DNA of 43,442 nucleotides from a virus. This document shows positions 3,314-38,563 of this stretch, one piece after another (within the stretch, counting starts at the first letter, position 1; each line of letters begins with the position of its first letter). Both the position numbers and the translations under genes were made by a program. The notes under the pieces were generated by a model. That model ran no database searches, was not told the origin of the DNA, and saw only the letters and a list, made by a program, of their open reading frames with translations. The stretch covers positions 1-43,442 of the IMG/VR virus record IMGVR_UViG_3300009285_014194. The stretch is one strand, 5' to 3'.

Positions 3314-4406
3314 TTTCAATTCTTGGAAGGGGTTATCTTATATTGAGCATTATAACGCTATAGTACAGGATAGACTCCTCTCTCCTATAGAAGCCAGCCT
3401 TGATCCAACTTCTCTTTGTCAATTATCTTGTCAATGGTGTAATTCTTATTCCTTTCTTCAGCCAGAAGGAAGTTTGTATAATAATATGAGAATAAGAAAA
3501 TATCCTTCTGAGCACCTAGAAAAACTGGTCAAATTTTTAATTGATTGGGGGGTAAGAAGTTTTTGTTTTGGAGGGGGAGGAGAACCTTCCCTTAATGATG
3601 AGGTAAGGGAATGTATGAAATTAATCTGTAATGAACAAAAGGAGTTTAGTTTAGTAACTAATGGAATATACATATCTAACCAACTTCTTTCCCTTCTTCC
3701 TCTTTGTCGATGGATAGGAGTTAGTGTAGATGTAGGAAAAAGAAAGACTTATCAACAATTAAAGGGAATAGATAAGTTTGATACAGTATTAAAAAACATA
3801 GAAAGAATAATAGCTTTCAGAGAAAGTTTTTATAAAGCCGGAATAATTAAACCTGATAAGTGTGATATTAGTTATAAATTTCTAATAATCCCAGAAAACA
3901 GCAAAGAAATATTATTAGCTTGTAGGATAGCTAAAGAATTAGGAGTCAATGAATTTCATGCTCGGCCAGCTTCTACAGATAGAAGGGAGGCTTTTGCTGG
4001 AAAATATATTCAATATGACTTAAATTTAATTGATTTTTTGTTTGAAGATTGTCATAGTTTAGAGGATAAAAATTTTAGGGTTATAACTAGCTTTCATAAG
4101 TTTTCAGAAGGATTTCATATTAAAAATGATTTTTCTAGGTGTTGGGCTTCAGCTTTGCAGATTCAATGCTGTGCTGATGGATATGTATATGTCTGTCAAG
4201 ATCAAAGGATTAACCCTAAATATCGGCTTGGCAGCCATTATCCCAATCCTGAAAATATATTATCCTTTTGGGGAAAGGAAAAGCATATAGAATTATTGAA
4301 GAGTATTAATCCAAAAGAAGATTGCCCTAGATGTACCTATGGGCCTTATAACAAACAAATAGAAGAGGTAATTATAAAGGATAGAATGTGCCTTAGTTTT
4401 CCATAA
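3279..4406 (+). CDS. Radical SAM enzyme with SPASM-like C-terminus
   Basis: The 4Fe-4S cluster motif CxxxCxxC is at residues C47, C51 and C54, and a glycine-rich SAM-binding stretch FGGGGEPS follows about 60 residues later. The C-terminal part has several more cysteines (CWAS, CC, CQD, CPRC), which resembles the SPASM/twitch auxiliary cluster region of enzymes that modify peptides or sugars. Length is 375 aa, usual for the class. The ATG follows AAAGGAAAG. It opens an island that also holds a PLP enzyme, a TPP enzyme, glycosyltransferases and a second radical-SAM protein, so it probably takes part in a common modification pathway. No precursor-peptide gene is evident, though the tiny proteins just downstream are candidates. 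Confidence 0.9.
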   Translation: MKEWSKENEYCSFNSWKGLSYIEHYNAIVQDRLLSPIEASLDPTSLCQLSCQWCNSYSFLQPEGSLYNNMRIRKYPSEHLEKLVKFLIDWGVRSFCFGGGGEPSLNDEVRECMKLICNEQKEFSLVTNGIYISNQLLSLLPLCRWIGVSVDVGKRKTYQQLKGIDKFDTVLKNIERIIAFRESFYKAGIIKPDKCDISYKFLIIPENSKEILLACRIAKELGVNEFHARPASTDRREAFAGKYIQYDLNLIDFLFEDCHSLEDKNFRVITSFHKFSEGFHIKNDFSRCWASALQIQCCADGYVYVCQDQRINPKYRLGSHYPNPENILSFWGKEKHIELLKSINPKEDCPRCTYGPYNKQIEEVIIKDRMCLSFP

Positions 4407-4424
4407 GGAAGGGAGGATATTTTA

Positions 4425-4511
4425 ATGAAAGAAGAATTAGAGAAAACCCCTCAAGTTTTGATTAATAAGATAGAAGAAGAGGAGAGGAAAAATGAGAAGA
4501 GACATTTATAA
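4425..4511 (+). CDS. Micro-ORF, 28 residues
   Basis: A highly charged 28-residue frame (MKEELEKTPQ start) directly follows the radical-SAM gene. It has a good GGGAGG site at 4411-4416 and overlaps the next gene by 20 bases. It could be a leader peptide for translational coupling or, more speculatively, a substrate of the neighbouring radical-SAM enzyme. Confidence 0.4.
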   Translation: MKEELEKTPQVLINKIEEEERKNEKRHL

Positions 4512-4752
4512 TTGTGACACTATATTATGTAATAATGAAGTAAAACAAGGCATAGAATTTCCGAAGTTTGTTTTTTCTACAAAAACCAGTAAGGGTAGTT
4601 GCTCTTTGGCTTTAGTCTTTGATAATAATGGAGAAATTGGAGAAGTGTGTTCAATTGGCTGTTTAATTAATTACATTAAAACTGAATTTGATAGGGCTGT
4701 AGACAAAAAGAAAGCAGAGGAAAATATTTCTGTAATTAAAAAAGAAAATTAA
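4492..4752 (+). CDS. Hypothetical Cys-containing protein
   Basis: An 86-residue protein with cysteines at CDTILC and CSIGC plus one between, perhaps a metal site of the MYM/zinc-knuckle kind, then a charged helical C-terminus. I do not recognise the family. It starts after GAGGAGAGG, inside the end of the 28-residue frame. Its place between the radical-SAM and aminotransferase genes suggests an accessory role in the same pathway. Confidence 0.6.
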   Translation: MRRDIYNCDTILCNNEVKQGIEFPKFVFSTKTSKGSCSLALVFDNNGEIGEVCSIGCLINYIKTEFDRAVDKKKAEENISVIKKEN

Positions 4753-4754
4753 TT

Positions 4755-4904
4755 ATGAGACTAATTTCTTTTCTATACAAAATAGCTAGGGCAGCTAATG
4801 ATATTGAAACTATCAGCTCAGGCAATCCTAAAAGAATTTTGAAAAGAATAAAAAATAAATATATAGGTAGAAAAATAGTCTCTAAGCTATTTAAATTTCC
4901 TTAA
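4755..4904 (+). CDS. Small basic protein, 49 residues
   Basis: A 49-residue frame begins two bases after the previous stop (MRLISFLYKIARAANDIE). It has a hydrophobic start and a Lys/Arg-rich second half with KRILKRIKNKY. This pattern, a short amphipathic segment followed by KRxKNK, recurs in small phage and Gram-positive proteins of unknown function, as far as I remember. It lacks a strong ribosome site and may rely on coupling. Confidence 0.5.
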   Translation: MRLISFLYKIARAANDIETISSGNPKRILKRIKNKYIGRKIVSKLFKFP

Positions 4905-4963
4905 TTAAAAGAGGAGAAAGTTTGGTTTTGTTTGTTGAATTTATTCGTGGGGAGATAAGATAT

Positions 4964-6127
4964 ATGCAACTATCTACTTTATCAAATAGGTTAGTTGGTC
5001 AACCAATGTTCCAATTATTAGCAAAAGTAAAAGAATTGGAAAAGCGGGGAAAAAGAATTATTCATATGGAAATAGGAGATAGTAATTTCCCTACTCCTGA
5101 GTTTGTTATTGATGTGACCAAAAGAGCCCTTGATGAAGGGTATACTCATTATTGCCCTTCTATGGGCTTATCAGAGTTAAGAGAAGCTATTTGTGATTAC
5201 ACGAAGAAGGATTTAGGCTTTAGGCCAGATATAGAACAGGTGTTAATATGTCCAGCTAATGCTATTATTGATTTTGTTGTTAGGTGCATTTGTGACGAGG
5301 GAGAAAGGAAAATAGTTTTTCCTGACCCTGGATTTCCTTCATACAGTTCTGTGTCAAAGTATAATGGAGTTAATGATTTTCAATATGATCCCATTCTCCT
5401 CTCCCCTGCTAAAATAGAACGTATATTGTGGCTAGTAAGGCCCGCTTTATTAATAATAAATTCTCCTAATAATCCTACGGGAGTTATAATACCGGATGAA
5501 GAAGGAGCAAGGCTTATTTATAATAGTGCAAAACAAAATGGCTGTTTTCTTTTTTCTGATGAAGTCTATTCCAAAATTATATTTGAAGGTCAACACCATT
5601 CTCCTGCCATATACGATCAGTGTAAGGAAAGAGTAGTTTTGCTTCAGAGCTTTTCTAAGCTCTATTCCATGTCTGGTTTTAGGTTAGGTTATGCTATAGG
5701 ACCAAAAGAATTGATAAATAAGATGGGACTTATGCTTGAAACTATTATAAGTTGTGTTCCTCCATTTATACAAAAGGCAGGAGTTGCTATTTTGCGTAAT
5801 GAGATGGAATTATATACTTGGCTTCAAGATAAAAAGTACATTCTTTGTTTCCGAAGAAGAGAGTTAGTAGATGGTTTAAATAGAATCCCTGGTTTTAGCT
5901 GCTCACTCCCACCAGGGGGCTTCTATGCTTGGTGTAATATAGAAGAGACTGGTTATAATGATTTACAATTAGCAGATATATTATTAGAAAAGGCTGGGAT
6001 AGCTTGTTTGCCCGGAAGATATTTTGGTGGTCAGGGAGAAGGCTATATTAGGTTTTGTTTTGCCTCTGTAATTATAGATGAAATAGAAGAGGCTCTGGAA
6101 AAGATAAAAAAGATATTAGAAAAATGA
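4964..6127 (+). CDS. Class I/II PLP-dependent aminotransferase
   Basis: A fold-type I aminotransferase of the aspartate/alanine aminotransferase group, about 387 aa. The PLP lysine is K232 in SFSKLYSMSGFRLG. Other family marks are the NSPNNPTG loop, SDEVYSKI with the PLP-contacting Asp, and the C-terminal GxIRFCF segment. The ATG at 4964 is 9 bases after GGGGAG and matches the usual N-terminus (LSNRL then IIHMEIGDSNFPTP). An in-frame TTG at 4922 with GAGGAG is an alternative. The enzyme would interconvert an amino acid and a 2-oxo acid. Next to a TPP-dependent enzyme that acts on 2-oxo acids, the pairing suggests one pathway. The substrate is unknown. Confidence 0.9.
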   Translation: MQLSTLSNRLVGQPMFQLLAKVKELEKRGKRIIHMEIGDSNFPTPEFVIDVTKRALDEGYTHYCPSMGLSELREAICDYTKKDLGFRPDIEQVLICPANAIIDFVVRCICDEGERKIVFPDPGFPSYSSVSKYNGVNDFQYDPILLSPAKIERILWLVRPALLIINSPNNPTGVIIPDEEGARLIYNSAKQNGCFLFSDEVYSKIIFEGQHHSPAIYDQCKERVVLLQSFSKLYSMSGFRLGYAIGPKELINKMGLMLETIISCVPPFIQKAGVAILRNEMELYTWLQDKKYILCFRRRELVDGLNRIPGFSCSLPPGGFYAWCNIEETGYNDLQLADILLEKAGIACLPGRYFGGQGEGYIRFCFASVIIDEIEEALEKIKKILEK

Positions 6128-6363
6128 TTTGTTTACAATGTGGTTCTTGCTGTAAAGAAATATCTCCTTTTGGAAATCCGGGCCCTAAATTAATAATAAA
6201 GGGGGCTATAGCATATTGTAAGATTTATGGTTGTAGGCCAAAAGTATGTAGGGATCACTCATTTAGTGATTACTCTAAGTGCCCAGTGGGATTATCAGTA
6301 TTAAAAATACGTGATTCTACTGAGTTACAACACAGGTATGGGGAGTTAGGGTTATTATTATAG
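6124..6363 (+). CDS. YkgJ-like cysteine-cluster protein
   Basis: A 79-residue protein starting with CxxCGSCC, followed by CKIYGCRPKVC, the pattern of the YkgJ/zinc- or iron-chelating family (CxxCxxCC). These proteins bind metal, with no agreed function. It overlaps the aminotransferase stop by ATGA, so the two are probably translationally coupled. It is shorter than typical family members of 100 aa or more, so it may be a minimal core. Confidence 0.75.
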   Translation: MICLQCGSCCKEISPFGNPGPKLIIKGAIAYCKIYGCRPKVCRDHSFSDYSKCPVGLSVLKIRDSTELQHRYGELGLLL

Positions 6364-6372
6364 GAGAAATTA

Positions 6373-9210
6373 ATGGAGATATTAAAATGGGAAAAGAAGG
6401 AAAAATCTAAAATTAGTTTTATTCTTTTTGATTGGTCAGTTAGGGAGAGTTTTCATATATTAGATTATTTTGCTAAACAGACTATTCCTAAGAAAGATTT
6501 TGAACTTATTTGGATAGAATTTTATAACCGCAGACCAGAACAAATTAGACAAAAAATAAGTATGGTAGATAAATGGATAATATTAGAATATCCTGAAACC
6601 ATCATTTATCACAAACATTTAATGTATAATATAGGGGCTATTGTAGCTAATTCTTCTATTATTTGTATTCTTGATAGTGACTCTTTTTTTAAGCCCTCCT
6701 TTATAGAATCTATTCTAAAAGAATTTGAGAAGGATTCTAATATAGTTTTATTTCTTGATGAATGTCGAAACGAAAGTATTAAATTCTACCCATTCAATTA
6801 TCCAGATTTTAAAGATGTAGAAAACTCCAAAGAATGTTGGAACTGGCCTAAGGATCCAATCAAAGTACAGCAAGACCCTCTGCACATGCTTAACTATGGT
6901 GCTTGTATGGTAGTGAGAAAGGAAAGTTATATTAATGCTGGAGGAGTGGATGAAGATATAGGGTATTTAGGGTATATAGCTGGTCCTCATGAACTAGGTT
7001 GGAGATTAGTTAATAGAGGATTAAGGGAAGTATGGCATCCAACTGAGTATCTTTATCATACTTGGCATCCAGGACAAGGTGGGGATTATGAATATAAGGA
7101 AAAGCATGATGGCTACAATATGAGTTTAATGGCTTTAGAAGTAAAAGAAAAAAAGAAAACTAGGCCCCAATACGAAAACCCAGGAATTAAATTTTTGAGA
7201 GAAAACCCTTGTTGGATAGGAGATAAAAAAGGAATATTACCTGTAGCTCTTCCCCAGATAACAACTGAATGGTTAAGATTATCTAAAGGAAAGGACTTGT
7301 TCATTCGAGGTCCTGCTAAAAAAAAATATTGTGATTTGTATTATCAATATATGGATAGGAGAAAAGAAATGAAGGTCAGTGATTATGTAGCTAAGTACTT
7401 AGTGGAACAAGGTATAGAGAAAGTGTTTTTGATATATGGAGCCCACAATGCTGATTTAGTAGATAGCATAGCTCAGGAGCCTAAGATTGATTATATCTGT
7501 GTCCATCACGAGCAAGCTGGAGCGATGGCTGCAGATGGATATTTTAGAGCTAATGGAAACTTATCTGCCGTAGTAACTACCAGTGGTCCTGGGGGAACTA
7601 ACCTTCTTACTGGGATAGGTTGTGCCTGGTATGATAGTATTCCTATACTATGTATCACTGGGCAAGTACACACAGCCTTTTTAAAAACCAATGATAAGGT
7701 TAGACAGTCAGGTTTTCAAGAAAATGACATAATAACTCAGGTCAAAAATATAACTAAGTATGCTTCTCAAATAAGAAAAGTAGGAAATATTAGAGAAGAG
7801 CTAGATAAAGCCTTCTATTATATGTTGGAAGGGAGGCCTGGTCCAGTTTTACTAGATATTCCTACCAACATACAAAAAGCAATTATTAATCCCTGCGAAC
7901 TAAAAAAATGGGATTTTCCTAAAAATGCCTATATCCGTGACTATCCCATAACTGAGATAGAAACTACTATTGAATGGTTAAGGCAGAGTAAAAGACCTGC
8001 TTTATTATTAGGTGGAGGAATTCATTTATCCCAAGCCCAAAAAAAGGTCAGGGAGTTGATTCACGCTCTAAAAATCCCTACCTTTCTAACTTATAATGCC
8101 CTTGATTTATTACCCTATGATGATCCTCTATATGGAGGAAGGATAGGAACTTTTGGAGGAGAGGGAAGAAATTTTGGAATTCAAAATTGTGATTTTCTTT
8201 TGTGTATAGGGACTAGAATATCGGGAAGGATAACTGGAGGAGAAATAAAAGACTTTGCCAGAGGAGCTATGATAGTTGTAGTAGACATAGATAGAGAAGA
8301 AATGATCTATAGTCTTGTAAGAAGAGACCTAAATATTAATTGTGATGCAAAACTTTTTATTAATTTATTTTTGCAAAAGGGCCAGGAGAGGGGTTTATTT
8401 AATACTAATTTCACCCTAACTAGAAAAGAATGGATAGGCAAGATAAAATATTGGAAGGAAAAGTATATACCTTCCCTTGGCTATTGGCCATATGAGTTTA
8501 TTAGAACCCTGAGTCAATCTTTAGAAGAAAAAGAAATAATTATTTTTGCTGCTGGAGGAGCTTTAGTTATATGCTCCCAGGCTTGGATAACTAAAGAAGG
8601 ACAAAGAATATTTACAGACAATGGTCATAGCTCTTTAGGATATTCTTTACCTGCGGCAATAGGGGCAGCTATTGCTTATGAGGGAAAAAAAAGAATAATA
8701 GCTATTATAGGAGATGGGGATTTAATGATGAATCTCCAAGAATTTCAAACAATAAAAAATTATAATCTTCCTATCAAAATATTCATTATGAATAATCAAT
8801 GCTATGGTATAGCTAAGAATTATCAAGATATGTATTTTGAGAGTAGGTATGAGGCCAGTGGGAAAGGATATAGCATCCCGGACTTTAAAAAAGTTTCTTT
8901 CGCTTTTGGTCTTTCTTATGCAAAAATAGAAAAAGATCATAAAGGATTATTTTTTATGAGCCCTAATGAGTTTCTGGAATTAATAGAAGAAGACAATCTT
9001 CAAAAAAGGCTATCACAACTATTAGCAAAAAAGGGGCCATGTATAATAGATGTAGATATGAAAGATATGTATAAATATAAGCCTTATCTAGGTTGGGGAA
9101 TGCCGATAGAAATGCAACTTCCTTTATTATCAAAAGAAGAGTTCTTAGAAAATATGATTATTAAGCCAGTAAATAATTGGGAAGAAATTTATGAAAGATA
9201 TAAGAAATAA
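6373..9210 (+). CDS. Glycosyltransferase fused to acetolactate synthase-like TPP enzyme
   Basis: A two-part protein of 945 aa. Residues 1-300 form a GT-A glycosyltransferase (family 2-like): a DSDS metal motif near 101-104 and a GGVDEDIGYLG ... HELGWRL acceptor region. Residues 333-945 are a complete TPP enzyme of the acetolactate synthase group: catalytic E380 in HHEQAGA, a TSGPGGTN loop, a central domain (GGGIHLSQAQ) and the TPP motif GDGD near 780 ending NN about 27 residues later. Known relatives decarboxylate 2-oxo acids and add the aldehyde unit to another carbonyl, including two-carbon branches on sugars. I infer that the TPP part makes or extends a group that the transferase attaches. 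An internal ATG at 7369 with its own ribosome site could also give the TPP enzyme alone. The start follows AGGAGA. The fusion is unusual; see findings. Confidence 0.9.
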   Translation: MEILKWEKKEKSKISFILFDWSVRESFHILDYFAKQTIPKKDFELIWIEFYNRRPEQIRQKISMVDKWIILEYPETIIYHKHLMYNIGAIVANSSIICILDSDSFFKPSFIESILKEFEKDSNIVLFLDECRNESIKFYPFNYPDFKDVENSKECWNWPKDPIKVQQDPLHMLNYGACMVVRKESYINAGGVDEDIGYLGYIAGPHELGWRLVNRGLREVWHPTEYLYHTWHPGQGGDYEYKEKHDGYNMSLMALEVKEKKKTRPQYENPGIKFLRENPCWIGDKKGILPVALPQITTEWLRLSKGKDLFIRGPAKKKYCDLYYQYMDRRKEMKVSDYVAKYLVEQGIEKVFLIYGAHNADLVDSIAQEPKIDYICVHHEQAGAMAADGYFRANGNLSAVVTTSGPGGTNLLTGIGCAWYDSIPILCITGQVHTAFLKTNDKVRQSGFQENDIITQVKNITKYASQIRKVGNIREELDKAFYYMLEGRPGPVLLDIPTNIQKAIINPCELKKWDFPKNAYIRDYPITEIETTIEWLRQSKRPALLLGGGIHLSQAQKKVRELIHALKIPTFLTYNALDLLPYDDPLYGGRIGTFGGEGRNFGIQNCDFLLCIGTRISGRITGGEIKDFARGAMIVVVDIDREEMIYSLVRRDLNINCDAKLFINLFLQKGQERGLFNTNFTLTRKEWIGKIKYWKEKYIPSLGYWPYEFIRTLSQSLEEKEIIIFAAGGALVICSQAWITKEGQRIFTDNGHSSLGYSLPAAIGAAIAYEGKKRIIAIIGDGDLMMNLQEFQTIKNYNLPIKIFIMNNQCYGIAKNYQDMYFESRYEASGKGYSIPDFKKVSFAFGLSYAKIEKDHKGLFFMSPNEFLELIEEDNLQKRLSQLLAKKGPCIIDVDMKDMYKYKPYLGWGMPIEMQLPLLSKEEFLENMIIKPVNNWEEIYERYKK
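7357..7371 (+). promoter_or_regulatory. Internal ribosome site and ATG for the TPP half
   Basis: AGGAG at 7357-7361 lies 7 bases before an in-frame ATG (7369) that begins exactly where TPP-enzyme homology starts (MKVSDYVAKYLVEQG). This would yield a separate 613-residue TPP enzyme, the normal length for the family. Confidence 0.5.
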
Positions 9211-10522: not shown

Positions 10523-10884
10523 GTATAGATCTAAAGGAAGCAGTCAGGCTAACCTTAACACGGTACGAAAAGGTCTTGGCTGGTGATAAGACCGGCTGGG
10601 AAGGAAGATGCCTTATGTGTGATTACCAGAGTACACTGGCTCAATCCGCCATTTGTAGAGGGTGCCCCCTGGAAGGTTGTTCCCAGGGGAAATTCCCCTA
10701 TTTTGGTGCAATCAAAGATTTACACTATATAAGCCCGAGTCTACGGCAGGAGCAGTGGGATTACATATGTGATCACTGGCGAGGGCCAAAGGGCTGCCAA
10801 GAAATATCCCATGATTCCAGGATAAAATGGCTCCTGGAGCAAAGATATGGGGAGTTAAAACAACTTTTGGCTGAATGGCTATAA
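10519..10884 (+). CDS. Cys-rich hypothetical protein, attC-type cassette gene
   Basis: A 121-aa protein with a cysteine patch (CLMCDY ... CRGCPLEGC) and a C-terminal helix ending in LLAEWL. The family is not recognised. The DNA is visibly richer in G and C than the genes before it. The stop codon TAA forms part of the R'' box of the hairpin at 10881-10934, as is common for integron cassettes. The ATGA overlap with the preceding glycosyltransferase marks the join of two differently composed sequences. Confidence 0.7.
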   Translation: MSIDLKEAVRLTLTRYEKVLAGDKTGWEGRCLMCDYQSTLAQSAICRGCPLEGCSQGKFPYFGAIKDLHYISPSLRQEQWDYICDHWRGPKGCQEISHDSRIKWLLEQRYGELKQLLAEWL

Positions 10885-10934
10885 CGTCAAGGGTCAGAGG
10901 TGGCTCTTAGCCATCTTCTGCGCCCGCTGGTTAT
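10881..10934 (+). other. attC-like recombination site A
   Basis: ATAAC (10881-10885) is matched by GTTAT (10930-10934). Between them GGG/CCC and an 11-bp stem (CAGAGGTGGCT with AGCCATCTTCTG, one bulged T, two G-T pairs) close on a CTT loop. Outer boxes, an unpaired spacer, then an imperfect stem with an extrahelical base is the known attC plan. It overlaps the stop of the gene before it. Confidence 0.7.
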
Positions 10935-10950
10935 CTTGAGGGTTTATAAT

Positions 10951-11373
10951 TTGGTTTTTGTAACTACAAGATTTCAAAGCAAAACAGACGAATGGTCTAC
11001 ACCAAATGACCTGTTTAAACCATTGGATGATGAATTTCATTTTACTCTTGATGTGGCGGCAACATCTGAGAATGCAAAAGCCAATCATTTTTTTACGGCG
11101 GATGATGATGGGTTGTCCCAAGAATGGAAAGGAATATGCTGGATGAATCCACCATACGGACAGCAGATAAAGAAATGGATAAAAAAGGCATGGGAAGAAG
11201 CTGGGAGGGGGGCTACGGTCGTTTGCCTTCTTCCGGCCCGCACAAATACAGGATATTGGCATGATTATTGTCTCAAGGGTGAAGTTAGATTCGTCAGAGG
11301 ATATCCCAAATTTGGAAAAGCAAAACAAGGATTGAAAGCACCTTTGGCTGTGGTAATTTTTCATGCAAGATAA
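10951..11373 (+). CDS. dam: Phage N6-adenine DNA methyltransferase (Dam, PF05869 type)
   Basis: About 140 aa, matching the small phage DNA N6-adenine methyltransferase family. Marks are an N-terminal DEWSTP, a LDVAAT SAM-binding segment, the catalytic NPPYG motif, and LLPARTNTGYWHDY. It would methylate adenine in a short target such as GATC, protecting phage DNA or timing replication. No ATG is available: TTG at 10951 is 8 bases after GAGGG, and an in-frame GTG at 10900 lies inside the attC-like hairpin and is less likely. The gene sits between two attC-like sites, and its TAA stop forms the start of the second. Its GC-rich composition differs from the phage core. It looks like a complete mobile cassette. 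Confidence 0.88.
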   Translation: MVFVTTRFQSKTDEWSTPNDLFKPLDDEFHFTLDVAATSENAKANHFFTADDDGLSQEWKGICWMNPPYGQQIKKWIKKAWEEAGRGATVVCLLPARTNTGYWHDYCLKGEVRFVRGYPKFGKAKQGLKAPLAVVIFHAR

Positions 11374-11427
11374 CATAAAGGCTGACTTGCCGGGGCTTCC
11401 CCGGTCAAGTCCAGCCGCTTGTTAGAA
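11371..11427 (+). other. attC-like recombination site B
   Basis: TAAC (11371-11374) pairs with GTTA (11421-11424, in GTTAGAA). The stem GGCTGACTTG / CAAGTCCAGCC (11380-11389 and 11406-11416) has one extrahelical C and is capped by CCGGGG/CCCCGG with a CTT loop. It is about 57 bases, like classical 59-base elements. It shares its whole 5' half with site F at 15.07 kb. Confidence 0.85.
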
Positions 11428-11436
11428 AGGAAATTT

Positions 11437-11670
11437 ATGATGAGTAATACAAGGAAAAACATCTTAAGTAAGCAGGAAATTATTGATATTATTCTCGAAG
11501 ATTTGGAAAATAATGGGCCAATAATGAATAAATTGCAAAGACGTTTTGATCCGTTGAATATGATTAGACATGTAGACACTAGAGATGCGATATCATGTTT
11601 TACACCGAATATTAGCCATCTTACTTTAGCTGATTTAGCCAAGCTTAATGAAAAAAAAAGAAATCGTTGA
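11437..11670 (+). CDS. Hypothetical 77-residue protein
   Basis: This small helical protein (MMSNTRKNILSKQEIIDIIL) starts right behind attC-like site B, with AAAGG 6 bases ahead of the ATG. No family is recognised. It has no clear attC-like site after it, so it is either the last gene of this cassette patch or a phage gene beside the insertion. Confidence 0.6.
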   Translation: MMSNTRKNILSKQEIIDIILEDLENNGPIMNKLQRRFDPLNMIRHVDTRDAISCFTPNISHLTLADLAKLNEKKRNR

Positions 11671-11705
11671 TTAGAAGGGAAGGAATCCATGAGGGGGGTT
11701 AAATT

Positions 11706-13181
11706 GTGATAGATATATTATTTATTCATCCAGGAGGCCAAAAAGGCATTTATCAAGAATTATCTAATAATCTAACTGCTATATGCCCTCCAGCTTATAC
11801 ATTATTATTGGCTGATTATGTAAGAAGACAAGGGTATTCAGTAGCAATACACGATTGCAATATATCAGAATGGAAAGAAAAAACAGCGGGAGCTTTAATT
11901 TATTATTATGAGCCTAAGCTTATAGTTATATGGGTCTTTGGCCACCATCCCTCAGCTAGCACTCAGACTATGCCTATAGCTAGCCAAATAGCTAAAGATA
12001 TTAAAGCTGTTAATAAGGATATACCTATAGCTATGGGAGGTATTCATCCATCAGCTTTGCCAGAGAGAACTTTAGAAGAAGAGGCTATTGATTTTGTAAT
12101 AACTGGTGAAGGCCCATACCAAATAATCGATATTCTTGATTATATAAGGGGAAAATCTAAAGGTAATAGTTCTATAGAGTTAGCTTTTAAAACCCCAAAT
12201 TTAGGGCTGTTCTGTGCCTCTGAGAGGGTATTTATAGAAGATCTTAATAAAGAATTAATTGGTTATTCTTGGGATCTTATTCCCTCATTGGATTATTACC
12301 GATCCCATAACTTTCATTGCTTTCAATATTTTAAGGATAGTAAAAAGGAGGATTTTAGTGATGTTAGATCTCCTTATGCTGCTATTTATACTAGCCTTGG
12401 CTGTCCAAATAATTGTTTTTATTGCTGTGCTAATCATTTGCATAAGGGAGAAGGAAGAGATTGGGAACTAAAAACTATTCTAAGATGGATAGATGAATTA
12501 GTACTGAAATATGAAGTAAGAAATATCAGAATACATGATCATTTATTTACTTATGATATTAAGAAATTAGAGTCCTTTGCAGACCAAATAAAAGAAAGAA
12601 GATACAATCTTAATCTGTCTATTTATGCTCGATTAGACACCCTTAATGACAACACTCTTTTTTCTATGGCTGAAGCTGGAGTAAAATGGATAGGTATAGG
12701 CATAGAATCAATTAATGATATTAAAAACAGAAAAGCAAAAGAAACAATAAAAATGACACAAGATTATTTTATGTTTACCTGTACAAATTATATGTTTGGA
12801 ATGCCTAATGATACTTTGCAATCTATGCAAGAGACTTTAGACCTGGCTCTAGAGCTCAATACAGAATTTGCTAATTTCTATTGTACAATGGCATATCCTG
12901 GTAGTCAATTATATGAAAAAATTAATAAAGAGGAACCTTTTAGATTACCTTTATCATGGGAAGGATACTCTCAACATGGATACGAAACTTATCCATTGTC
13001 TAACCAAAATCTTCTTGCCAAAGAAATCCTGGCTTTCAGAGATAAGGCTTTTCATCGATACTTTGGTAGTGAAAAATATTTAAATATGATAAATAAAAAG
13101 TTTGGTTCCAAGGTAGTTAAGCATATTCAGGACTTCAATTCTATCAGATTAAAAAGAAGGCTATTGGAAGATTGTGACTAG
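11706..13181 (+). CDS. B12-binding-domain radical SAM enzyme
   Basis: A 491-aa protein. Residues 1-150 resemble the cobalamin-binding domain that precedes class B radical-SAM enzymes (ILFIHPGG, PPAYTLLLADYVRRQGY, MGGIHPSALPE, DFVITGEG). The cluster motif CPNNCFYC is at C233, C237 and C240. Class B members carry out methylations, ring contractions and other C-C chemistry. I do not see the DxHxxG B12 ligand, so the first domain may not bind cobalamin in base-off form. The start is GTG 7 bases after a GGGGGG tract. AT-rich composition fits the phage core, and with 3279-10522 it completes the modification island. Confidence 0.88.
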   Translation: MIDILFIHPGGQKGIYQELSNNLTAICPPAYTLLLADYVRRQGYSVAIHDCNISEWKEKTAGALIYYYEPKLIVIWVFGHHPSASTQTMPIASQIAKDIKAVNKDIPIAMGGIHPSALPERTLEEEAIDFVITGEGPYQIIDILDYIRGKSKGNSSIELAFKTPNLGLFCASERVFIEDLNKELIGYSWDLIPSLDYYRSHNFHCFQYFKDSKKEDFSDVRSPYAAIYTSLGCPNNCFYCCANHLHKGEGRDWELKTILRWIDELVLKYEVRNIRIHDHLFTYDIKKLESFADQIKERRYNLNLSIYARLDTLNDNTLFSMAEAGVKWIGIGIESINDIKNRKAKETIKMTQDYFMFTCTNYMFGMPNDTLQSMQETLDLALELNTEFANFYCTMAYPGSQLYEKINKEEPFRLPLSWEGYSQHGYETYPLSNQNLLAKEILAFRDKAFHRYFGSEKYLNMINKKFGSKVVKHIQDFNSIRLKRRLLEDCD

Positions 13182-13791: not shown

Positions 13792-13798
13792 TTCCCCG

Positions 13799-13854
13799 AA
13801 CGACAAGCTCACCTGCCGCCGATCCTGGCGGTTAGGTGGAGTGACTAGTTATGT
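13799..13854 (+). other. attC-like recombination site C
   Basis: AAC (13799-13801) faces GTTATGT (13848-13854). Stem CTCACCT / AGGTGGAG (13808-13814 and 13834-13841) has one extra G. It continues, past a bulged T, as GCCGCC / GGCGGT and closes on GATCCT. The next gene starts 18 bases after the R' box with GGAGGG before its ATG. Confidence 0.75.
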
Positions 13855-13871
13855 GTTTTATTGGAGGGTCC

Positions 13872-14051
13872 ATGAAGAAAAAGGGAGGGGTAATCCATGT
13901 GGTGGCAGAATGTGAGGATTGTGCGTGGCGGACAGAAGAATATAAAAATGGGCAAGCGATAGCCGCAAAACACGCCAAATCTAAGAAGCATAAGGTTAGA
14001 GTAGACGTGGGGCTTGTTTTTGAATATGATGGTAGAATACAGAAAACATAA
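13872..14051 (+). CDS. Small zinc-finger cassette protein
   Basis: A 59-aa protein: CEDCAW then HAKSKKH spaced as in a C2H2-like finger, and a C-terminal beta strand. GGAGGG lies 3-4 bases ahead of the ATG. An upstream ATG at 13851 lies in the R' box of site C and has no ribosome site. The TAA stop is part of site D, so gene and sites have the complete cassette layout (13849-14096). Confidence 0.7.
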   Translation: MKKKGGVIHVVAECEDCAWRTEEYKNGQAIAAKHAKSKKHKVRVDVGLVFEYDGRIQKT

Positions 14052-14102
14052 CGTAGAAATCAGCGGGAGCCCTTAGTGATCCGCTGGAATGCCTTGTTAG
14101 CA
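14049..14102 (+). other. attC-like recombination site D
   Basis: TAAC (14049-14052) pairs with GTTA (14096-14099, in GTTAGCA). The inner stem CAGCGG / CCGCTG (14061-14066, 14081-14086) encloses 14 bases. It is shorter and less perfect than sites A-C. It overlaps the stop of the zinc-finger gene and sits 20 bases before the next start. Confidence 0.65.
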
Positions 14103-14122
14103 CTTTTTTATAGGAGGATAAT

Positions 14123-14488
14123 ATGGGAGCAAAATTGAAAGACCTGATAGGCAAAACGATGATGAGTGTTGAGAACAAAGACAATGAGGAGATAATTTTT
14201 ACCACAGATAAAGGGGAAAAATACAAACTATATCACACATATGATTGTAGTGAATCTGTTACTGTTGAGGATGTCATTGGCAATCTGGCGGATTTAGTAG
14301 GTTCCCCACTTCTGATGGCTGAAGAGGAGACGAGCAACGAGAATCCAGAAGGGATAAATAAAGAATATCAGGAAAGTTTCACATGGACATTCTATAAATT
14401 TGCCACCCTGAAAGGTTATGTAACAATTCGGTGGTATGGTGAATCGAATGGATATTATAGTGAGAGTGTGGATTTCTGTGAGTGCTAA
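14123..14488 (+). CDS. DUF7448-like phage protein on a cassette
   Basis: A 121-aa protein whose C-terminal segment (ESFTWTFYKFATLKG then IRWYGESNGYYSE) matches a protein I know as a conserved phage family (DUF7448-like). The N-terminal LIGKTM and YDCSESVTVEDVIG also fit. The function is unknown. TAGGAGGA gives a strong start at 14123. It begins right behind site D, and its TAA stop lies in CTAAC of a shortened site E, so a typical phage accessory gene is here in cassette form. Confidence 0.75.
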   Translation: MGAKLKDLIGKTMMSVENKDNEEIIFTTDKGEKYKLYHTYDCSESVTVEDVIGNLADLVGSPLLMAEEETSNENPEGINKEYQESFTWTFYKFATLKGYVTIRWYGESNGYYSESVDFCEC

Positions 14489-14498
14489 CAGACGTTAG
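14485..14498 (+). other. Shortened attC-like remnant E
   Basis: CTAAC (14485-14489) and GTTAG (14494-14498) are perfect complements only 4 bases apart. The stop codon TAA lies in the first box, as at the other sites, but the central stem is absent. A second inverted repeat, TTAGGT/ACCTAA, follows at once (14495-14514). It may be an attC that lost its middle, or a chance palindrome. Confidence 0.35.
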
Positions 14499-14541
14499 GT
14501 TGATGTCTACCTAAGAGTAAGTACGAAATGAGAGGTAATGT

Positions 14542-14677
14542 GTGACATTGAAGAAGATATATTTCAAATCAGATAGTGGAGCCATAAAAGCATAAGGAAG
14601 TAGCAGAGAATAACAGCGATGAGGATCTTGAGTATGACATAAACGAGGGAGATCTTCCATATCCCAAGGAGTACTAA
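14542..14677 (+). pseudogene. Possible broken small gene
   Basis: From GTG 14542 a frame reads 17 codons to a stop at 14593-14595. In another frame, open from 14588 and without any start codon, the DNA reads EVAENNSDEDLEYDINEGD up to the stop at 14675-14677. Joining the two with a single +1 shift would give about 44 residues. Codon use in the second part looks coding. Evidence is thin, and chance is possible. Confidence 0.25.
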
Positions 14678-14832
14678 TGGCCAGGACATACCGCAAGCAA
14701 CGAGACCGTACCCATAATACCCGGGCCCGTAAAAGGCAGAGATATGAAAAGAAGATGGGTCTGGAGAATAAGATTCTGGTAGCGTGGGAACCCCAGCTTC
14801 GGTTCCATAAATATATTAGTGAGGGAGGATAA
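14677..14832 (+). CDS. Small very basic protein, 51 residues
   Basis: ATG 14677 is 5 bases behind AAGGAG and opens a 51-residue frame rich in Arg/Lys (MARTYRKQRDRTHNTRARKR), probably nucleic-acid binding or ribosomal-protein-like in character. Its last codons contain the GGGAGGA ribosome site of the next gene, which starts two bases after the stop, so both genes form one unit that ends in site F. Confidence 0.6.
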   Translation: MARTYRKQRDRTHNTRARKRQRYEKKMGLENKILVAWEPQLRFHKYISEGG

Positions 14833-14834
14833 TT

Positions 14835-15077
14835 ATGTTTCCTGAAACCGCAAGGAATTTAGCTTTAGACTGTATCCAGAAAGCAATTTTAGGGCTGTGG
14901 GATAAAGATATGGCAACTATTGCAGATAAGCTATTTGAGAAAGTTAAAGGGTTATTACGGGTAGCTTTTGAGGAAGAAGAAGAAAAAGAAAAGGTAGAGA
15001 GGAAAAGAATCCAGATAGAATATGAGGATGGAGAAGTTAAGAAAATTATGCCACCGAGAAAGAAGGGGAGAACGTAA
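14835..15077 (+). CDS. Hypothetical helical cassette protein
   Basis: An 80-aa helical protein (FPETARNLALDCIQKAI) with a charged C-terminus (EEEEKEKVERKR). The start follows GGGAGGA closely. The stop TAA at 15075-15077 lies within attC-like site F. No family recognised. Confidence 0.65.
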   Translation: MFPETARNLALDCIQKAILGLWDKDMATIADKLFEKVKGLLRVAFEEEEEKEKVERKRIQIEYEDGEVKKIMPPRKKGRT

Positions 15078-15127
15078 AGGCTGACTTGCCGGGGCTTTTG
15101 ACGGTCGGGTCAAGTGGTTTGTTAGAC
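15071..15127 (+). other. attC-like recombination site F
   Basis: AAC (15071-15073) faces a textbook R' box, GTTAGAC (15121-15127). The stem ACTTGCCG pairs with CGG-GT-CAAGT (15105-15115, GT bulged). Its first half (AAAGGCTGACTTG and on) is the same as in site B, while the second half differs, suggesting a common origin followed by decay. The next gene's ACGGAGG overlaps the end of the R' box. Confidence 0.75.
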
Positions 15128-15140
15128 GGAGGTTTTTAAG

Positions 15141-15587
15141 ATGGTTAAAACTCTTTTTATGGAAACCACTAAAATTTCTGCCAGTCAAACCGTGGGAGAA
15201 ATTCAGCGGTTATTGGGCAATTATGGAGCAAGTGCTGTCCTGACAGAATATGAAAAAGGCGAAGTTATAGCTGTCTCATTCAGGGTTCTATTCAACGGGC
15301 AGCATATCCCCTTTCGTCTCCCCTGCCGATGGCAAGCGATTTTTAAAAAATTGCAATCCAAGAGAAAGAGAAGACCCTATAACCGTAATGATGAAACACA
15401 GGCCCGCCGGGTGGCCTGGAGACAGATTCTTCGCTGGATTGAAGCACAATTAGCCCTTGTGGATACCGAGATGGTTCAAATTCAAGAAGTTTTTATGCCC
15501 TATCTTCAAATGAATACGGGCAAAACATTGTACGAACAACTAGAAGAAACCAAGTTCAGAATGATTGATCATAAATCCGTAGTGTAG
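15141..15587 (+). CDS. Conserved phage-type hypothetical protein
   Basis: A 148-aa protein (FMETTKISASQTVGEIQRLLG start; later RRVAWRQILRWIEAQLALV). I recall similar proteins from phages and mobile elements of diverse bacteria, with VAWRQxLRWxEAQ as the best conserved part, but with no known function. ACGGAGG is 8 bases before the ATG. It is the last gene of the second cassette patch; no attC-like site follows, and a promoter begins within 25 bases of the stop. Confidence 0.7.
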   Translation: MVKTLFMETTKISASQTVGEIQRLLGNYGASAVLTEYEKGEVIAVSFRVLFNGQHIPFRLPCRWQAIFKKLQSKRKRRPYNRNDETQARRVAWRQILRWIEAQLALVDTEMVQIQEVFMPYLQMNTGKTLYEQLEETKFRMIDHKSVV

Positions 15588-25376: not shown

Positions 25377-28300
25377 ATGGAATTTTGCCCACTGCATATT
25401 CACACTGAGTTTTCGTTACTTGATGGTTTCTGTAAAATAAAAGATTTGGTAGCTAAAGCTGCAGCGATGAAATTTCCATATTTGGGTATTACTGATCACG
25501 CTAGTATTTCGGGAGGATTTAGATTTATTCGGTCTTGTAAAGAGGCTGGAATTAGGCCTATAATAGGCTGTGAGTTTTATGTAGTTGATGATTTAAATTG
25601 GCCTGGTTTAAGGGCGGAAAGAAATAAGCAAGAGAGAGAGCAGAGATTTCATGTTTTAGTTTTGGCTAAGTCATGGGTGGGTTTGCAATCTATTTCCTTG
25701 GCTTTAACTAAGGCTTCTTTTAATTTTTTTAGAAAGCCTAGAATTGATTGGGATGATATATTAGGATTAAAAGATGTTATTGTTGCTACTGCTTGTAGTT
25801 CTGGAGTATTGAGTCATCCTAATTATGAAGAAAAAGTGATAGGATTGAGAGAACGATTTGGAGAGGATTTGTATTTGGAAATTATGCCTTTGGATTTTAA
25901 AAACCAGATTGAAATTAATTATAGAGCATTGGATCTGTCCAGGCGATTGGGGATTGGTTTGTTAGCTTCTAATGATGTCCATTACATAGAAAAAGAAGAG
26001 GCCTTTTCTCACGAAATTTTATTAGCTTTACAGCGGAAGACTACTCTTGATGATCCTAAGAGGTGGAAATTTGATGTAGAGGGGTTGTTTTTGAAGTCAG
26101 AAGAGGAAATGATTTATTCTTTTGAGCAATTGGGTATGTCTGAAAAGATATATTTAGATGCTCTCCATAGAACCACAGAAGTAGCAGAAAAATGCTGTTG
26201 GGAATTTTCTCCTTTGCTTGTTTCCTTGCCTTCGGTCAGAAGCAAATTTCTGGGAAATTTAGAGGAGAATAAGACGACTGATGAACAGTTGATAGAGCTA
26301 TGTTTTAATAAGATTATGGGAGATGATCATTTTAGAAAAAAAAAGAATTTTGATGAATATTCAGAACGATTGATTTATGAGTTGGATAGAATAATAGAGT
26401 TAGGGTTTAGTGGATATTTTCTGATAGTTCAGGATTTGATAAATCATTGTAGAAAAATGGGTATTTTTGTTGGGCCAGGCAGAGGCTCTGCGTCAGGTTC
26501 ATTGGTATGTTATTTATTGGATATAACTCGGCTAGATCCGGTGAAATATAAATTGTTATTTGATAGATTTATTTCTCCAGCAAGGATTGATCTGCCAGAT
26601 ATAGACATGGATTTTGAAGATAAGAGAAGAGGAGAAGTAATAGATTATCTGAAAAGGAAATATGGAAAAGATCACGTTGCGGGCGTGGTTACCTGGGGAG
26701 AAATGAAAGCTAGAATGGCTTTAAAGGATGTGGCAAGAGTTTTCAAGGTTCCTCAAAAGGATGTCAATGATGTGACAAAATTGATTGTGCAAAGGACTAA
26801 GGGGGATGAAAGGACAGATTTTAGCTTGGAGGATTCTTTCCAAATCTTCGAAGGCTGTAAAAGATTTGAGCAAAAATATCCCCAAGTAGTGGGGCAGGCA
26901 AAGAAATTTGAGGGATTAGTCCGGCAAAGGGGCAGACACGCAGCCGCAGTAGTAGTGTCTGCTGTTTCCCTGAAAGAAAGAGCTCCTCTAATTACAGAAA
27001 CCAATGGTGGAGAAACCCTGGTAGCTTATGATAAATATGATCTGGATGATTTAGGATTAATGAAGCTGGATATTTTGGGACTGCGGACTCTGTCTATATT
27101 AAGTCTAGTAAAACAATTGGTATTAGAGACTAAAGGAAAAGAGCTGGATTTTGAATCTATTCCTCTAGATGATAAAAAGGTGTTTGAAGAATTAGGGACA
27201 GGAAATGCCTTAGCAGTTTTTCAAATGGAAAGTGAAGGATTTATTAAACTGTTGAGAAGTCTGGCTCCAATAACAGAATTTGAGACTTTGGTTGCTGCCA
27301 ATACATTGCATCGGCCAGGAGGCATTAAATCAGGGATAATGACTTCTTATGTCCAAAGAAGACGAGGGTTGGAGAAAATAGAATATATGATCCCATATAT
27401 GGAGGAGTTGACTAGAGATACTTATGGATTGATAATATATCAAGAACAAATCATGTTAGCTTTATACGAATTGGCAGGGTTTACGTGGAAAACGGCAGAC
27501 ACTATACGAAAAATTATTAGTAAATCACAGGGACAAGCTAGATTTGCTAAATTTACAGAACAATTTGTAGAAGGGTGTAAAAACCGGCATAATATTCCAG
27601 AAAAAATTTCAAGGGTCCTATTTAAGGAAATGAGTTATTCGGGTTCTTATTCTTTTAATAGGAGTCATTCCGCTACCTATACATTGATAGGATATTGGTG
27701 CTGTTATTGTAAGATATATTATACTGCTGAATTTTTTGCTAGCTATCTAGCTTTGACTGAAGATAAGAATAAGGTTATTGCAGCAATTAAAGATGCTTTG
27801 AGACTGGGGGTAAAATTTTTACCCCCTGATATTAATATTAGTAATTTTCATTGGAAAATAGTATTGGAAAATACTTTGCAGGTAGGATTGTTAGAAATAA
27901 AAGGTCTGGGGGAAATAGCAGCAAGGGCAATATTAGATAGTAGAGAATCAGGCTCTTTTAAAAATATTGAGGATTTTTTATATCGAATAGATAGAAGGAA
28001 AGTGAATAAACAAAAGGTTCAGATTCTGGCTAAGGCAGGGTTGTTTGATAATATAAGTATTAATAGAAAAAAATTAATAGAAGCTCTTCCTCTTTATTTG
28101 GGTGGAGCAATACAGAAAGGAAAAGGGAACCTTTTAAGGCTGAGGGGTAAAAATAGACTTTTTGGAGAGTCAGGAGATTTGTTATCAAATACTGTATTTA
28201 AAGAAGATTTATTTTCAGCAGAAGATTTTGAAGAGAAAGAAAAACAACAGATGCTTATTTCTGAGATGGGAGGGGTGTCTATTTTTCCTGTTAGTTTTTT

Positions 28301-29378
28301 ATCTCAGGTTTTATCTACAGATAATTTGAGAAAATATCTTTTTAAAGAAAAGCTGATGTTGTTAGGTATAAATGAATTGAATAGTAAACAAAAATCTTTA
28401 CAAGAGCTTTATCTCTTGGGTTTGGTAAAAGATATAAAATATGGATTTAAGCAAAAGGTAGCATTTTTAGGTGGGGTGGCAGGGGCTTCTGAGGGCAGAA
28501 GGATAGTCTCAGATTATTTAGGAGGAATATATGGCAATTTTGAAGATGCTACTGATTTTATGATGGTGGTGTATGGTTCTGATTTATATCGGTCAAATAA
28601 AGAATTATTAGAATCACTGGCAGGGAGTATTTGCTTGGTTAGGGGAGGCATAAAAATAATAGGCAAGGACAATTTTTTTGTTGATGATCTTGTTTCTATA
28701 GATAGATTAGATCAGTGTTTAACATTTCAGCAAGGCCAATTTAGCCAGCAGTGGTTTAATTTGAATAATTATTTTTTGGTTACAAATTCTATTGTTGATT
28801 TGTGGGAAGAGATTTGTGATTGTTATTCTTGTGGACTTGGTAAGGAAGGTAAAGGGCCTGTGTTAGCGGATTATATTGAAGGCAAAGCCAGATTTATGAT
28901 AATAGGAGAGGCCCCAGGTAGGGAGGAAGAAAGCCAAGGGGTTCCATTTGTTGGGAAAGCTGGGATATTATTGATGGAAATTTTAAATGATATAGGATTA
29001 AATAGAAATCAGGCATATATTACGAATGTAATAAAATGCAGGCCTCCTGATAATAGAAAGCCTTCTTCTGTTGAAGTTAAAAAATGTAAGAGTTGGTTAG
29101 AAAAAGAAATTGAAATGGTAAGGCCTTTGTTGATTTTAGCATTGGGAAATACTGCAGCAGAATTTTTTTCTGGTCAGTCTTCAGGTATTCTTGATAGGAA
29201 TGCTTCTGTGGAATGGAATTTTGATTGGGGGTGTTGGATAGTTTATAGTATTCATCCTGCAGCAGTTTTGTATGAGGCAGATAAATTACCGCTTTTGAAA
29301 GAATCAATAGAGAAGGTGGGTAGATTTTATGACTTGGCTAAGAAGGTTGGGCAGAGGAGGTTTAGGGAAAAGGAGTAA
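25377..29378 (+). CDS. dnaE: DNA polymerase III alpha fused to family-4 uracil-DNA glycosylase
   Basis: A 1333-aa fusion. Residues 1-220 are a PHP domain (HIHTEFSLLDG). The C-family palm follows, with GPGRGSASG near 365, catalytic D408 and D410 (PDIDMDF) and D565 (KLDILGL), and a helix-hairpin-helix region (GLGEIAARAIL) near 850. Residues from about 1140 on form a complete family-4 uracil-DNA glycosylase: C1147/C1149/C1152, GEAPGREEESQGVPFVGKAG near 1176, KCRPPDNRKP, and cysteines for a 4Fe-4S cluster. The usual bacterial tau-binding end seems replaced. The enzyme should replicate the phage genome. The attached glycosylase would remove uracil, or scan for it, at the fork. The clamp-loader gene follows immediately. 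Confidence 0.93.
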   Translation: MEFCPLHIHTEFSLLDGFCKIKDLVAKAAAMKFPYLGITDHASISGGFRFIRSCKEAGIRPIIGCEFYVVDDLNWPGLRAERNKQEREQRFHVLVLAKSWVGLQSISLALTKASFNFFRKPRIDWDDILGLKDVIVATACSSGVLSHPNYEEKVIGLRERFGEDLYLEIMPLDFKNQIEINYRALDLSRRLGIGLLASNDVHYIEKEEAFSHEILLALQRKTTLDDPKRWKFDVEGLFLKSEEEMIYSFEQLGMSEKIYLDALHRTTEVAEKCCWEFSPLLVSLPSVRSKFLGNLEENKTTDEQLIELCFNKIMGDDHFRKKKNFDEYSERLIYELDRIIELGFSGYFLIVQDLINHCRKMGIFVGPGRGSASGSLVCYLLDITRLDPVKYKLLFDRFISPARIDLPDIDMDFEDKRRGEVIDYLKRKYGKDHVAGVVTWGEMKARMALKDVARVFKVPQKDVNDVTKLIVQRTKGDERTDFSLEDSFQIFEGCKRFEQKYPQVVGQAKKFEGLVRQRGRHAAAVVVSAVSLKERAPLITETNGGETLVAYDKYDLDDLGLMKLDILGLRTLSILSLVKQLVLETKGKELDFESIPLDDKKVFEELGTGNALAVFQMESEGFIKLLRSLAPITEFETLVAANTLHRPGGIKSGIMTSYVQRRRGLEKIEYMIPYMEELTRDTYGLIIYQEQIMLALYELAGFTWKTADTIRKIISKSQGQARFAKFTEQFVEGCKNRHNIPEKISRVLFKEMSYSGSYSFNRSHSATYTLIGYWCCYCKIYYTAEFFASYLALTEDKNKVIAAIKDALRLGVKFLPPDINISNFHWKIVLENTLQVGLLEIKGLGEIAARAILDSRESGSFKNIEDFLYRIDRRKVNKQKVQILAKAGLFDNISINRKKLIEALPLYLGGAIQKGKGNLLRLRGKNRLFGESGDLLSNTVFKEDLFSAEDFEEKEKQQMLISEMGGVSIFPVSFLSQVLSTDNLRKYLFKEKLMLLGINELNSKQKSLQELYLLGLVKDIKYGFKQKVAFLGGVAGASEGRRIVSDYLGGIYGNFEDATDFMMVVYGSDLYRSNKELLESLAGSICLVRGGIKIIGKDNFFVDDLVSIDRLDQCLTFQQGQFSQQWFNLNNYFLVTNSIVDLWEEICDCYSCGLGKEGKGPVLADYIEGKARFMIIGEAPGREEESQGVPFVGKAGILLMEILNDIGLNRNQAYITNVIKCRPPDNRKPSSVEVKKCKSWLEKEIEMVRPLLILALGNTAAEFFSGQSSGILDRNASVEWNFDWGCWIVYSIHPAAVLYEADKLPLLKESIEKVGRFYDLAKKVGQRRFREKE

Positions 29379-37191: not shown

Positions 37192-37233
37192 TTCAAAAAA
37201 AGAGGATTTGATCTTGAGAAGGCTAACCAGGAA

Positions 37234-37467
37234 TTGAATAAGGCTGGCCGAGAGATTGAATATAAAAAAAGAGAATTAGATAAAACTCAGTCTGAGATTG
37301 ATAATATTTTGGATCAATTAAAAAAGGATTTTGGAATAGAGAATGTAGAAGGCTTGGAAAAAGAAAAAAAAAGAATAGAGTTTGAATTAGAGAGCCTAAT
37401 TGAACAGGTCTCTAAAGAATATGAAGAATTAATGGATTCGCTGGAAGAGAAAGGAATTAAAGTTTGA
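37234..37467 (+). CDS. Coiled-coil protein, possibly an sbcC fragment
   Basis: A 77-aa coiled coil (EIEYKKRELDKTQSEID ... DFGIENVEGLEKEKKRIEFE). The same frame is open and coding-like 14 codons further upstream, to the sbcD stop (FDLEKANQELNKAGRE), but with no normal start there. The TTG at 37234 has no good ribosome site. It could be an independent small phage coiled-coil protein, which I recall next to sbcC elsewhere, or the ascending arm of the second sbcC coil, cut off from 38564 by the inserted genes. GTTATGT at 37495 downstream hints at a cassette border. Confidence 0.55.
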   Translation: MNKAGREIEYKKRELDKTQSEIDNILDQLKKDFGIENVEGLEKEKKRIEFELESLIEQVSKEYEELMDSLEEKGIKV

Positions 37468-37566: not shown

Positions 37567-37773
37567 ATGCCAGGAGAAAATTTCAGAAGTATCGGGCATG
37601 TTAAATGTTGTGCCACCTGTCAAAACGCATACCAAGAAGAAACTTTGGTCTGTACAATAGAGGACAAAACAGGGGATATTTTGAATTCAGATGACGGCGA
37701 CGAATGCGCTCCGATATTAATTTTTGATTTATGCGATGCTTACAAAAAAGGGTCGCCCCAAAGGTGGGATTGA
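37567..37773 (+). CDS. Cys-rich cassette protein
   Basis: A 68-aa protein with CCATCQ, CTIED and further cysteines, consistent with metal binding (GHVKCCATCQNAY). No family is known. GGGGGTGGAGGG gives a strong start. It is GC-richer than the sbc genes around it and is followed within 10 bases by an attC-like hairpin, so it looks like a cassette. The 99 bases before it (37468-37566) hold only weak hairpins and GTTATGT/GTTATTT boxes. Confidence 0.65.
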   Translation: MPGENFRSIGHVKCCATCQNAYQEETLVCTIEDKTGDILNSDDGDECAPILIFDLCDAYKKGSPQRWD

Positions 37774-37782
37774 TAATGCTGA

Positions 37783-37826
37783 AGATAAGCGGCGCTGCAA
37801 GCGACCGCTGGAGTAGCTGGTTATCT
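37783..37826 (+). other. attC-like recombination site G (degenerate)
   Basis: AGATAA (37783-37788) is the exact complement of TTATCT (37821-37826, in GTTATCT). The inner stem GCGGCGCT / AGCG-A-CCGC (37789-37796, 37800-37808) has one bulged A; 12 bases on the 3' side stay unpaired. After it the leader TGTGTTTTTATTGGAGG is nearly that of site C. The R'' box lacks the usual final C. Confidence 0.6.
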
Positions 37827-38499: not shown

Positions 38500-38550
38500 C
38501 GCGGTCGTGAGGGGTGTGGTTCTCAGCATCCTTCACGACGAACCTTAGCG
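38494..38550 (+). other. attC-like recombination site H
   Basis: CGCTAA (38494-38499) is matched by TTAGCG (38545-38550). A 12-bp stem TCGTGAGGGGTG / CATCCTTCACGA (38505-38516, 38527-38538, two G-T pairs) closes on a 10-base loop. Total 57 bases. The R' box reads CTTAGCG, so the normally invariant first G is C. Confidence 0.7.
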
Positions 38551-38563
38551 GAGAATAAAATAT

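Follow-up and report, generated by a model that had tools for sequence, protein, structure and literature searches.

Integron gene cassettes are exchangeable units through which bacteria trade genes. In such a cassette the opening bases pair with the closing bases, since both meet in the excised circle, and the substrate recombined by the integron integrase (IntI) is the bottom strand of the attC site in its folded form. Clusters of attC sites lacking an integrase (CALINs) are a known kind of element in phages since the report of Qi et al. in 2023 (PMC9892861), which describes 17 phage CALINs and IntI1 activity at five of the six phage attC sites assayed. A first-pass annotation of the present locus knew of no established attC array within a phage replication/metabolism region; its belief that no phage case is established is not supported in view of that report. 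The locus described here is assigned, with a probability of roughly 90%, to the same kind, as an integrase-less cluster of true integron attC sites with their gene cassettes in a tailed phage.

The window, that is, the whole stretch of DNA analysed, is the linear IMG/VR record IMGVR_UViG_3300009285_014194 of 43,442 bases. Nearly all its genes are on the plus strand, in a block of replication and metabolism genes that includes a DnaB-like helicase, a primase, a DnaE-like DNA polymerase and a clamp loader. A sister contig (G001), 99.97% identical across the cassette region, extends 12.9 kb beyond the window and encodes there a portal protein and a head morphogenesis gene, which identify the window as part of a tailed phage. 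The two contigs differ at 37195-37281, where sequence near 37.2 kb is duplicated or repeated, and at 41961-43439, where a stretch after 41.96 kb is replaced and 88.6% identity then resumes. The gene at 6373-9210 encodes a 945-aa protein with a glycosyltransferase-like N-terminus and a complete thiamine-diphosphate enzyme, and is accompanied by radical-SAM, aminotransferase-like and B12-binding radical-SAM genes, an island unusual in a phage. The DnaE-like polymerase (25377-29378, 1333 aa) can be aligned over about 68% of its length to most of its phage relatives, and thus has an extra C-terminal part.

Two covariance models were used for the detection of attC sites: R1, trained on 28 sites of two sources, plasmids with class 1 integrons and integrase-linked arrays in genomes of one phylum, and R2, trained on 25 sites exclusively from other phages. 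R2, run unfiltered across the whole window and giving rough E-values, detected six sites (A, B, C, D, F and G) with 22-41 bits, all on the minus strand, the next best match reaching 14.5. The top three matches of R1 in the whole window were D (28.9 bits), B (22.0) and A (12.9); this stricter model gave site C only 9.6 bits and site F 5.4. The scores of R2 at the six sites, and of R1 at D, B and A, support the attC fold, which is marked by complementary outer R boxes carrying AAC and GTT, inner L arms, unpaired bases and a variable loop. The sites occupy at least three places of the phage genome, with A and B 0.5 kb apart and C, D and F within 1.4 kb. A covariance search and folding had been proposed in the first-pass annotation as checks of its sites, of which C, D and F were borne out by the phage-trained model; the sites A, B and G had escaped it, and its shortened attC site E had to be dropped, as detailed below.

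Site A (10879..10936, minus strand; boxes CTATAAC and GTTATCT; R2 21.6 bits, E 0.0036) folds into an imperfect hairpin with paired outer boxes (z -2.5). Site B (11368..11427, minus strand; AGATAAC and GTTAGAA; R2 40.7 bits, E 4e-8; fold z -5.9) is the best formed, and its counterpart in L096, a contig of another tailed phage, shows a compensated stem change from CCGGGG with CCCCGG to CCGTGG with CCACGG. Site C (13795..13854, minus strand) has the boxes CCCGAAC and GTTATGT (R2 34.9 bits, E 1.4e-6), site D (14046..14102, minus strand), the best match of R1, ACATAAC and GTTAGCA (R2 40.1 bits, E 6e-8), and site F (15067..15127, minus strand) GGAGAAC and GTTAGAC (R2 28.9 bits, E 5e-5). The left arm of F is 93% identical to that of B (11369-11398) in a self-comparison of the window, which gave the first pointer to the upstream sites. 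Site G (37771..37826, minus strand; R' box GTTATCT; R2 23.1 bits, E 0.0015), also present in the sister contig, is outlying and partly decayed, its left box lacking AAC; the leader TTTTTATTGGAGG follows R' there as it does at site C. The motif AGATAAC at 38242, a possible closing box for G, falls within a gene and was left out of the counts. Sites A and G are weak. The stretch CGCTAACGCGGTCGTGAGG...CCTTCACGACGAACCTTAGCGG at 38507-38565, where the right GTT reads CTT, resembles a further decayed attC site and gave no R2 match. The TAA stop codon falls within the first box, as the first-pass annotation had noted for several cases; this holds for the genes that end at A, B, D and E, whereas the gene ending at F has its stop codon one base past the box. 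The array is broken up by a B12/radical-SAM gene with 32.5% GC, the cassette parts having 38-47% GC against 35% for the phage.

Three intervals are closed by exactly complementary boxes. The A-B cassette (10930..11374, plus strand; GTTATCT and AGATAAC) carries a phage N6-adenine methyltransferase (Dam), ORF 10900-11373, with a probable TTG start at 10951 and matches to Pfam PF05869 (E 2e-26) and TIGR01712 (82.9 bits, below the cut-off of that model). The C-D cassette (13848..14052, plus strand; GTTATGT and ACATAAC) holds a zinc-ribbon-like ORF of 66 aa (13851-14051), with a likely ATG start at 13872 and its TAA stop within the closing box. The D-E cassette (14096..14489, plus strand; GTTAGCA and TGCTAAC) holds the DUF7448 gene 14123-14488 (Pfam DUF7448, E 1e-30; phrog_2650). 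The box comparison concerns four variable positions, for which a chance match is expected in about 3% of pairs (3.2% among non-neighbouring boxes). Neighbouring boxes of the window were complementary at all four positions in three of the four testable intervals (P = 1.3e-4), in agreement with the integron cassette plan put forward by the first-pass annotation, and in eight phage arrays pooled the closure was exact in 22 of 32 intervals (P = 7e-26). The cassette following site B does not close. The gene at 15141..15587 (plus strand; phrog_17260, weak RecT-like match) is probably the payload of site F, and no closing box was found for it.

Site E (14483..14500, plus strand) consists of the closing box TGCTAA^C (14483-14489; caret, cutting point of IntI), which is real, being exactly complementary to GTTAGCA of site D, and of no attC hairpin (fold z = -0.15; no R2 match in the whole-window scan). 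We infer that it is probably the anchor of the array, its integration point; the predicted empty site of C-E, ATTCCCCGAA^CAGACGTTAGG, found no match in the viral contigs. Array 1 of the phage contig G003 ends in the same manner, with ACATAA^CAG, ACATAACAG, and the DUF7448 gene of G312 also ends in TGCTAAC, followed by different sequence.

In the proposed mechanism, an integron integrase provided in trans by the host or by a co-infecting element would fold the single-stranded attC sites, cut at AA^C (G^TT) and insert or remove cassettes in the phage genome. Each cassette unit, in the reversed orientation described below, would consist of an attC site followed by its gene. The cassette genes (N6-adenine methylase, DUF7448, small zinc-ribbon proteins) would be translated within the plus-strand block from their own ribosome sites, which are found shortly after the opening box. 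Relatives of the window showed no alternative cassette order and no empty site; no recent cassette movement is seen, since the sister contig is nearly identical.

All attC sites of the window are on the minus strand and the genes on the plus strand, so that the usual bacterial polarity, with the gene on the attC top strand and the recombinogenic strand non-coding, is reversed. The first-pass annotation had not noticed this reversal. Orientations are separated by R1, whose best matches in integrase-linked controls were on the strand set by intI. Reversed attC sites were found in the window and in G003, G311, G312, G005, MW202573 and PH101, and the usual orientation in TJE1, a Vibrio phage and G310. 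When each interval was represented by its longest ORF, 16 phage cassettes were opposite, 5 same and 12 unclear, against 1 opposite, 51 same and 3 unclear in bacterial integrons (Fisher P 6e-11), calls that shift somewhat with the way ORFs are cut (a variant count was made) and that for the A-B interval of the window were decided by the methylase homology; because the intervals within an array depend on one another, counting by phage is fairer and gives seven reversed and three usual. Reversed polarity in phage arrays is apparently new as far as the literature examined shows; the main text of Qi et al. (PMC9892861) makes no mention of it.

Owing to the reversal, the coding strand is the strand used by IntI. 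What this may do for the phage is suggested by replication and by expression. Excision at attC is higher when the bottom strand is on the lagging-strand template (PMC5371416), and the coding (bottom) strand would be the lagging template if phage replication here runs the same way as the genes. A cassette inserted in a reversed array would be expressed only if its gene and its attC point in opposite directions, so selection for expression could by itself yield the reversal.

The DUF7448 cassette provides an independent test of the recombination footprint. Among 69 viral relatives of DUF7448, an exact box pair (at most 52 bases upstream and at the stop codon) was present in three and in none of the other 66, with the opening box 28, 38 and 52 bases upstream of the gene; the pairs were GTTAGCA and TGCTAAC in the sister contig of the window (L001), GTTAGGC and GCCTAAC in G310, and GTTATGC and GCATAAC in G311. 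An alignment of four phages showed that the homology of the DUF7448 region stops at TAAC, where IntI cuts. Records with DUF7448 or Dam relatives contained attC arrays in G311, G312, G353, G005, G455 and G310, and in G005 a Dam methylase homologous to that of the window is flanked by two attC sites. A pattern scan yielded L096/G003, a contig of a tailed phage that encodes terminase, portal and major head proteins, in which eleven attC sites and an end box form two arrays with nine of ten intervals exactly closed. The G003 arrays (L114/L115) lie at 4178-6866 and 10750-12806, and the latter stops immediately ahead of the large terminase gene; two cassettes of G003 on the minus strand (L096:855-1232 and L115:351-728) have the usual bacterial polarity and code for membrane/coiled-coil proteins that are related to each other.

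Cassette-gene relatives mostly lack a nearby attC site, which indicates that the cassettes carry genes from the general phage stock. Likewise, nine other viral contigs with relatives of one cassette protein from G003 had no attC sites, so that cassette genes are not tied to cassettes. One G003 cassette protein of canonical polarity gave no match in 398 genomes of one phylum, and the arm shared by sites B and F gave nine matches in 84,980 bacterial and archaeal genomes, none of the nine with AAC/GTT boxes and all judged to be chance. That unrelated phages have DUF7448 and Dam cassettes in common is new as far as the literature examined shows.

These data tentatively suggest, at somewhat less than even odds, that phages run a cassette economy of their own, in which attC-bounded units of reversed polarity, with the coding strand recombinogenic, carry phage-type genes (DUF7448, Dam methylase and others) between unrelated phages. 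If true, expression from the operon of the phage would go together with attC sites being exposed on the lagging-strand template as the phage replicates, and phage replication itself is predicted to open the attC sites. Integron recombination would then enter everyday phage mosaicism, and a host integrase could swap small genes between unrelated phages at a defined joint; the genes so exchanged could be small anti-defence or host-takeover genes. The reversed polarity sets phage cassettes apart from bacterial ones and offers a test, from sequence only, for the direction of transfer.

It is unlikely that the block was instead taken once from a bacterial integron and now decays without cassette exchange in the phage, as would be paralleled by the Vibrio phages described in the main text of Qi et al. 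(PMC9892861). The decay of A and G, the unclosed cassette of B, the interrupting B12/radical-SAM gene and the identical order in the sister contig would agree with such passive inheritance. Against it, the cassette genes are of phage type and many phages carry them outside cassettes, 51 of the 52 callable bacterial cassettes have the opposite attC polarity, the sites occupy several genome places, and other phages also hold DUF7448 as a cassette, with different boxes.

Regarding the integrase, the window and the sister contig contained no match to TIGR02249 or PF00589, and no intI with an attI site beside the first cassette, as in a complete integron, was found. The classification as a CALIN follows from this absence, which confirms and extends by 12.9 kb the finding of the first-pass annotation that the window holds no integrase. 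As neither contig is a closed genome, an integrase may sit off-contig. A complete phage integron, with an IntI of its own in the window phage or its relatives, is nevertheless improbable, more so than passive inheritance. It is favoured by G310, in which an IntI-like integrase gene adjoins the DUF7448 cassette, near the terminase. The G310 integrase (342 aa) reached 214.7 bits with TIGR02249 (model cut-off 265) against 91 with XerC and XerD, and has all catalytic residues R, K, H, R, H and Y and the IntI-type extra region WEWQYVFPA; the DUF7448 protein of G310 is the second closest to that of the window (72%). At L002:2379-3407 (IMGVR_UViG_3300049914_000070, with terminase and portal genes) a divergent IntI-like integrase lies directly before a DUF7448 cassette bounded by GTTAGGC and GCCTAAC, a candidate phage-encoded integron. 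Against an own integrase, none was found in the other eight of nine attC-bearing virus records tested, the sister contig included, a search with the G310 integrase found no other relative in viral contigs, and the G310 sites are in the usual orientation. Of the two routes considered by the first-pass annotation, a host enzyme would act in trans, a mode of recombination supported by the lack of an integrase on the contigs, and an unseen phage enzyme gains some support from G310, whose integrase beside a cassette indicates that the enzyme may in some phages be phage-encoded. For the window phage, a host-supplied integrase is the simpler reading, and we infer that IntI acts in trans on its sites.

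A reading of the hairpins as common RNA elements between cistrons (terminators, or elements for processing or translation coupling), with AAC/GTT boxes by chance, can hardly hold: such hairpins between co-directional genes, directly after stop codons, are common in phages and the operon is entirely plus-strand, but a terminator scan (GC stem plus T run) found nothing at any site, an Rfam scan gave no match, and this explanation predicts neither the match of opening and closing boxes several hundred bases apart, nor the end of homology at TAAC in unrelated phages, nor the scores under bacterial and phage attC models. At B, C and D it is already refuted by the complementary boxes together with the scores.

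Compared with known systems, the attC and cassette array of the window shares with the sedentary chromosomal integrons of bacteria the attC anatomy, the box complementarity and the GTT core, and differs from them in its reversed gene polarity and phage-type cargo, with neither intI nor attI seen. The complete integrons of temperate phages (Vibrio phage MK672802 and Shewanella M16-3), described in the main text of Qi et al. (PMC9892861), likewise place attC sites and cassettes in a phage; they carry intI and were excised from chromosomal integrons of the host, whereas the window has no intI and shorter attC sites. The phage CALINs of the same source (TJE1, PH101, P12002L and MW202573; PMC9892861) are, as here, integrase-less attC arrays in tailed phages with short genes that include DNA methyltransferases. 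In the present scan, MW202573 and PH101 showed the reversed orientation of the window and TJE1 the usual one. Unlike these CALINs, the array of the window is located among the replication and metabolism genes of an uncultured phage, and its DUF7448 and Dam cassettes are held in common with other phages.
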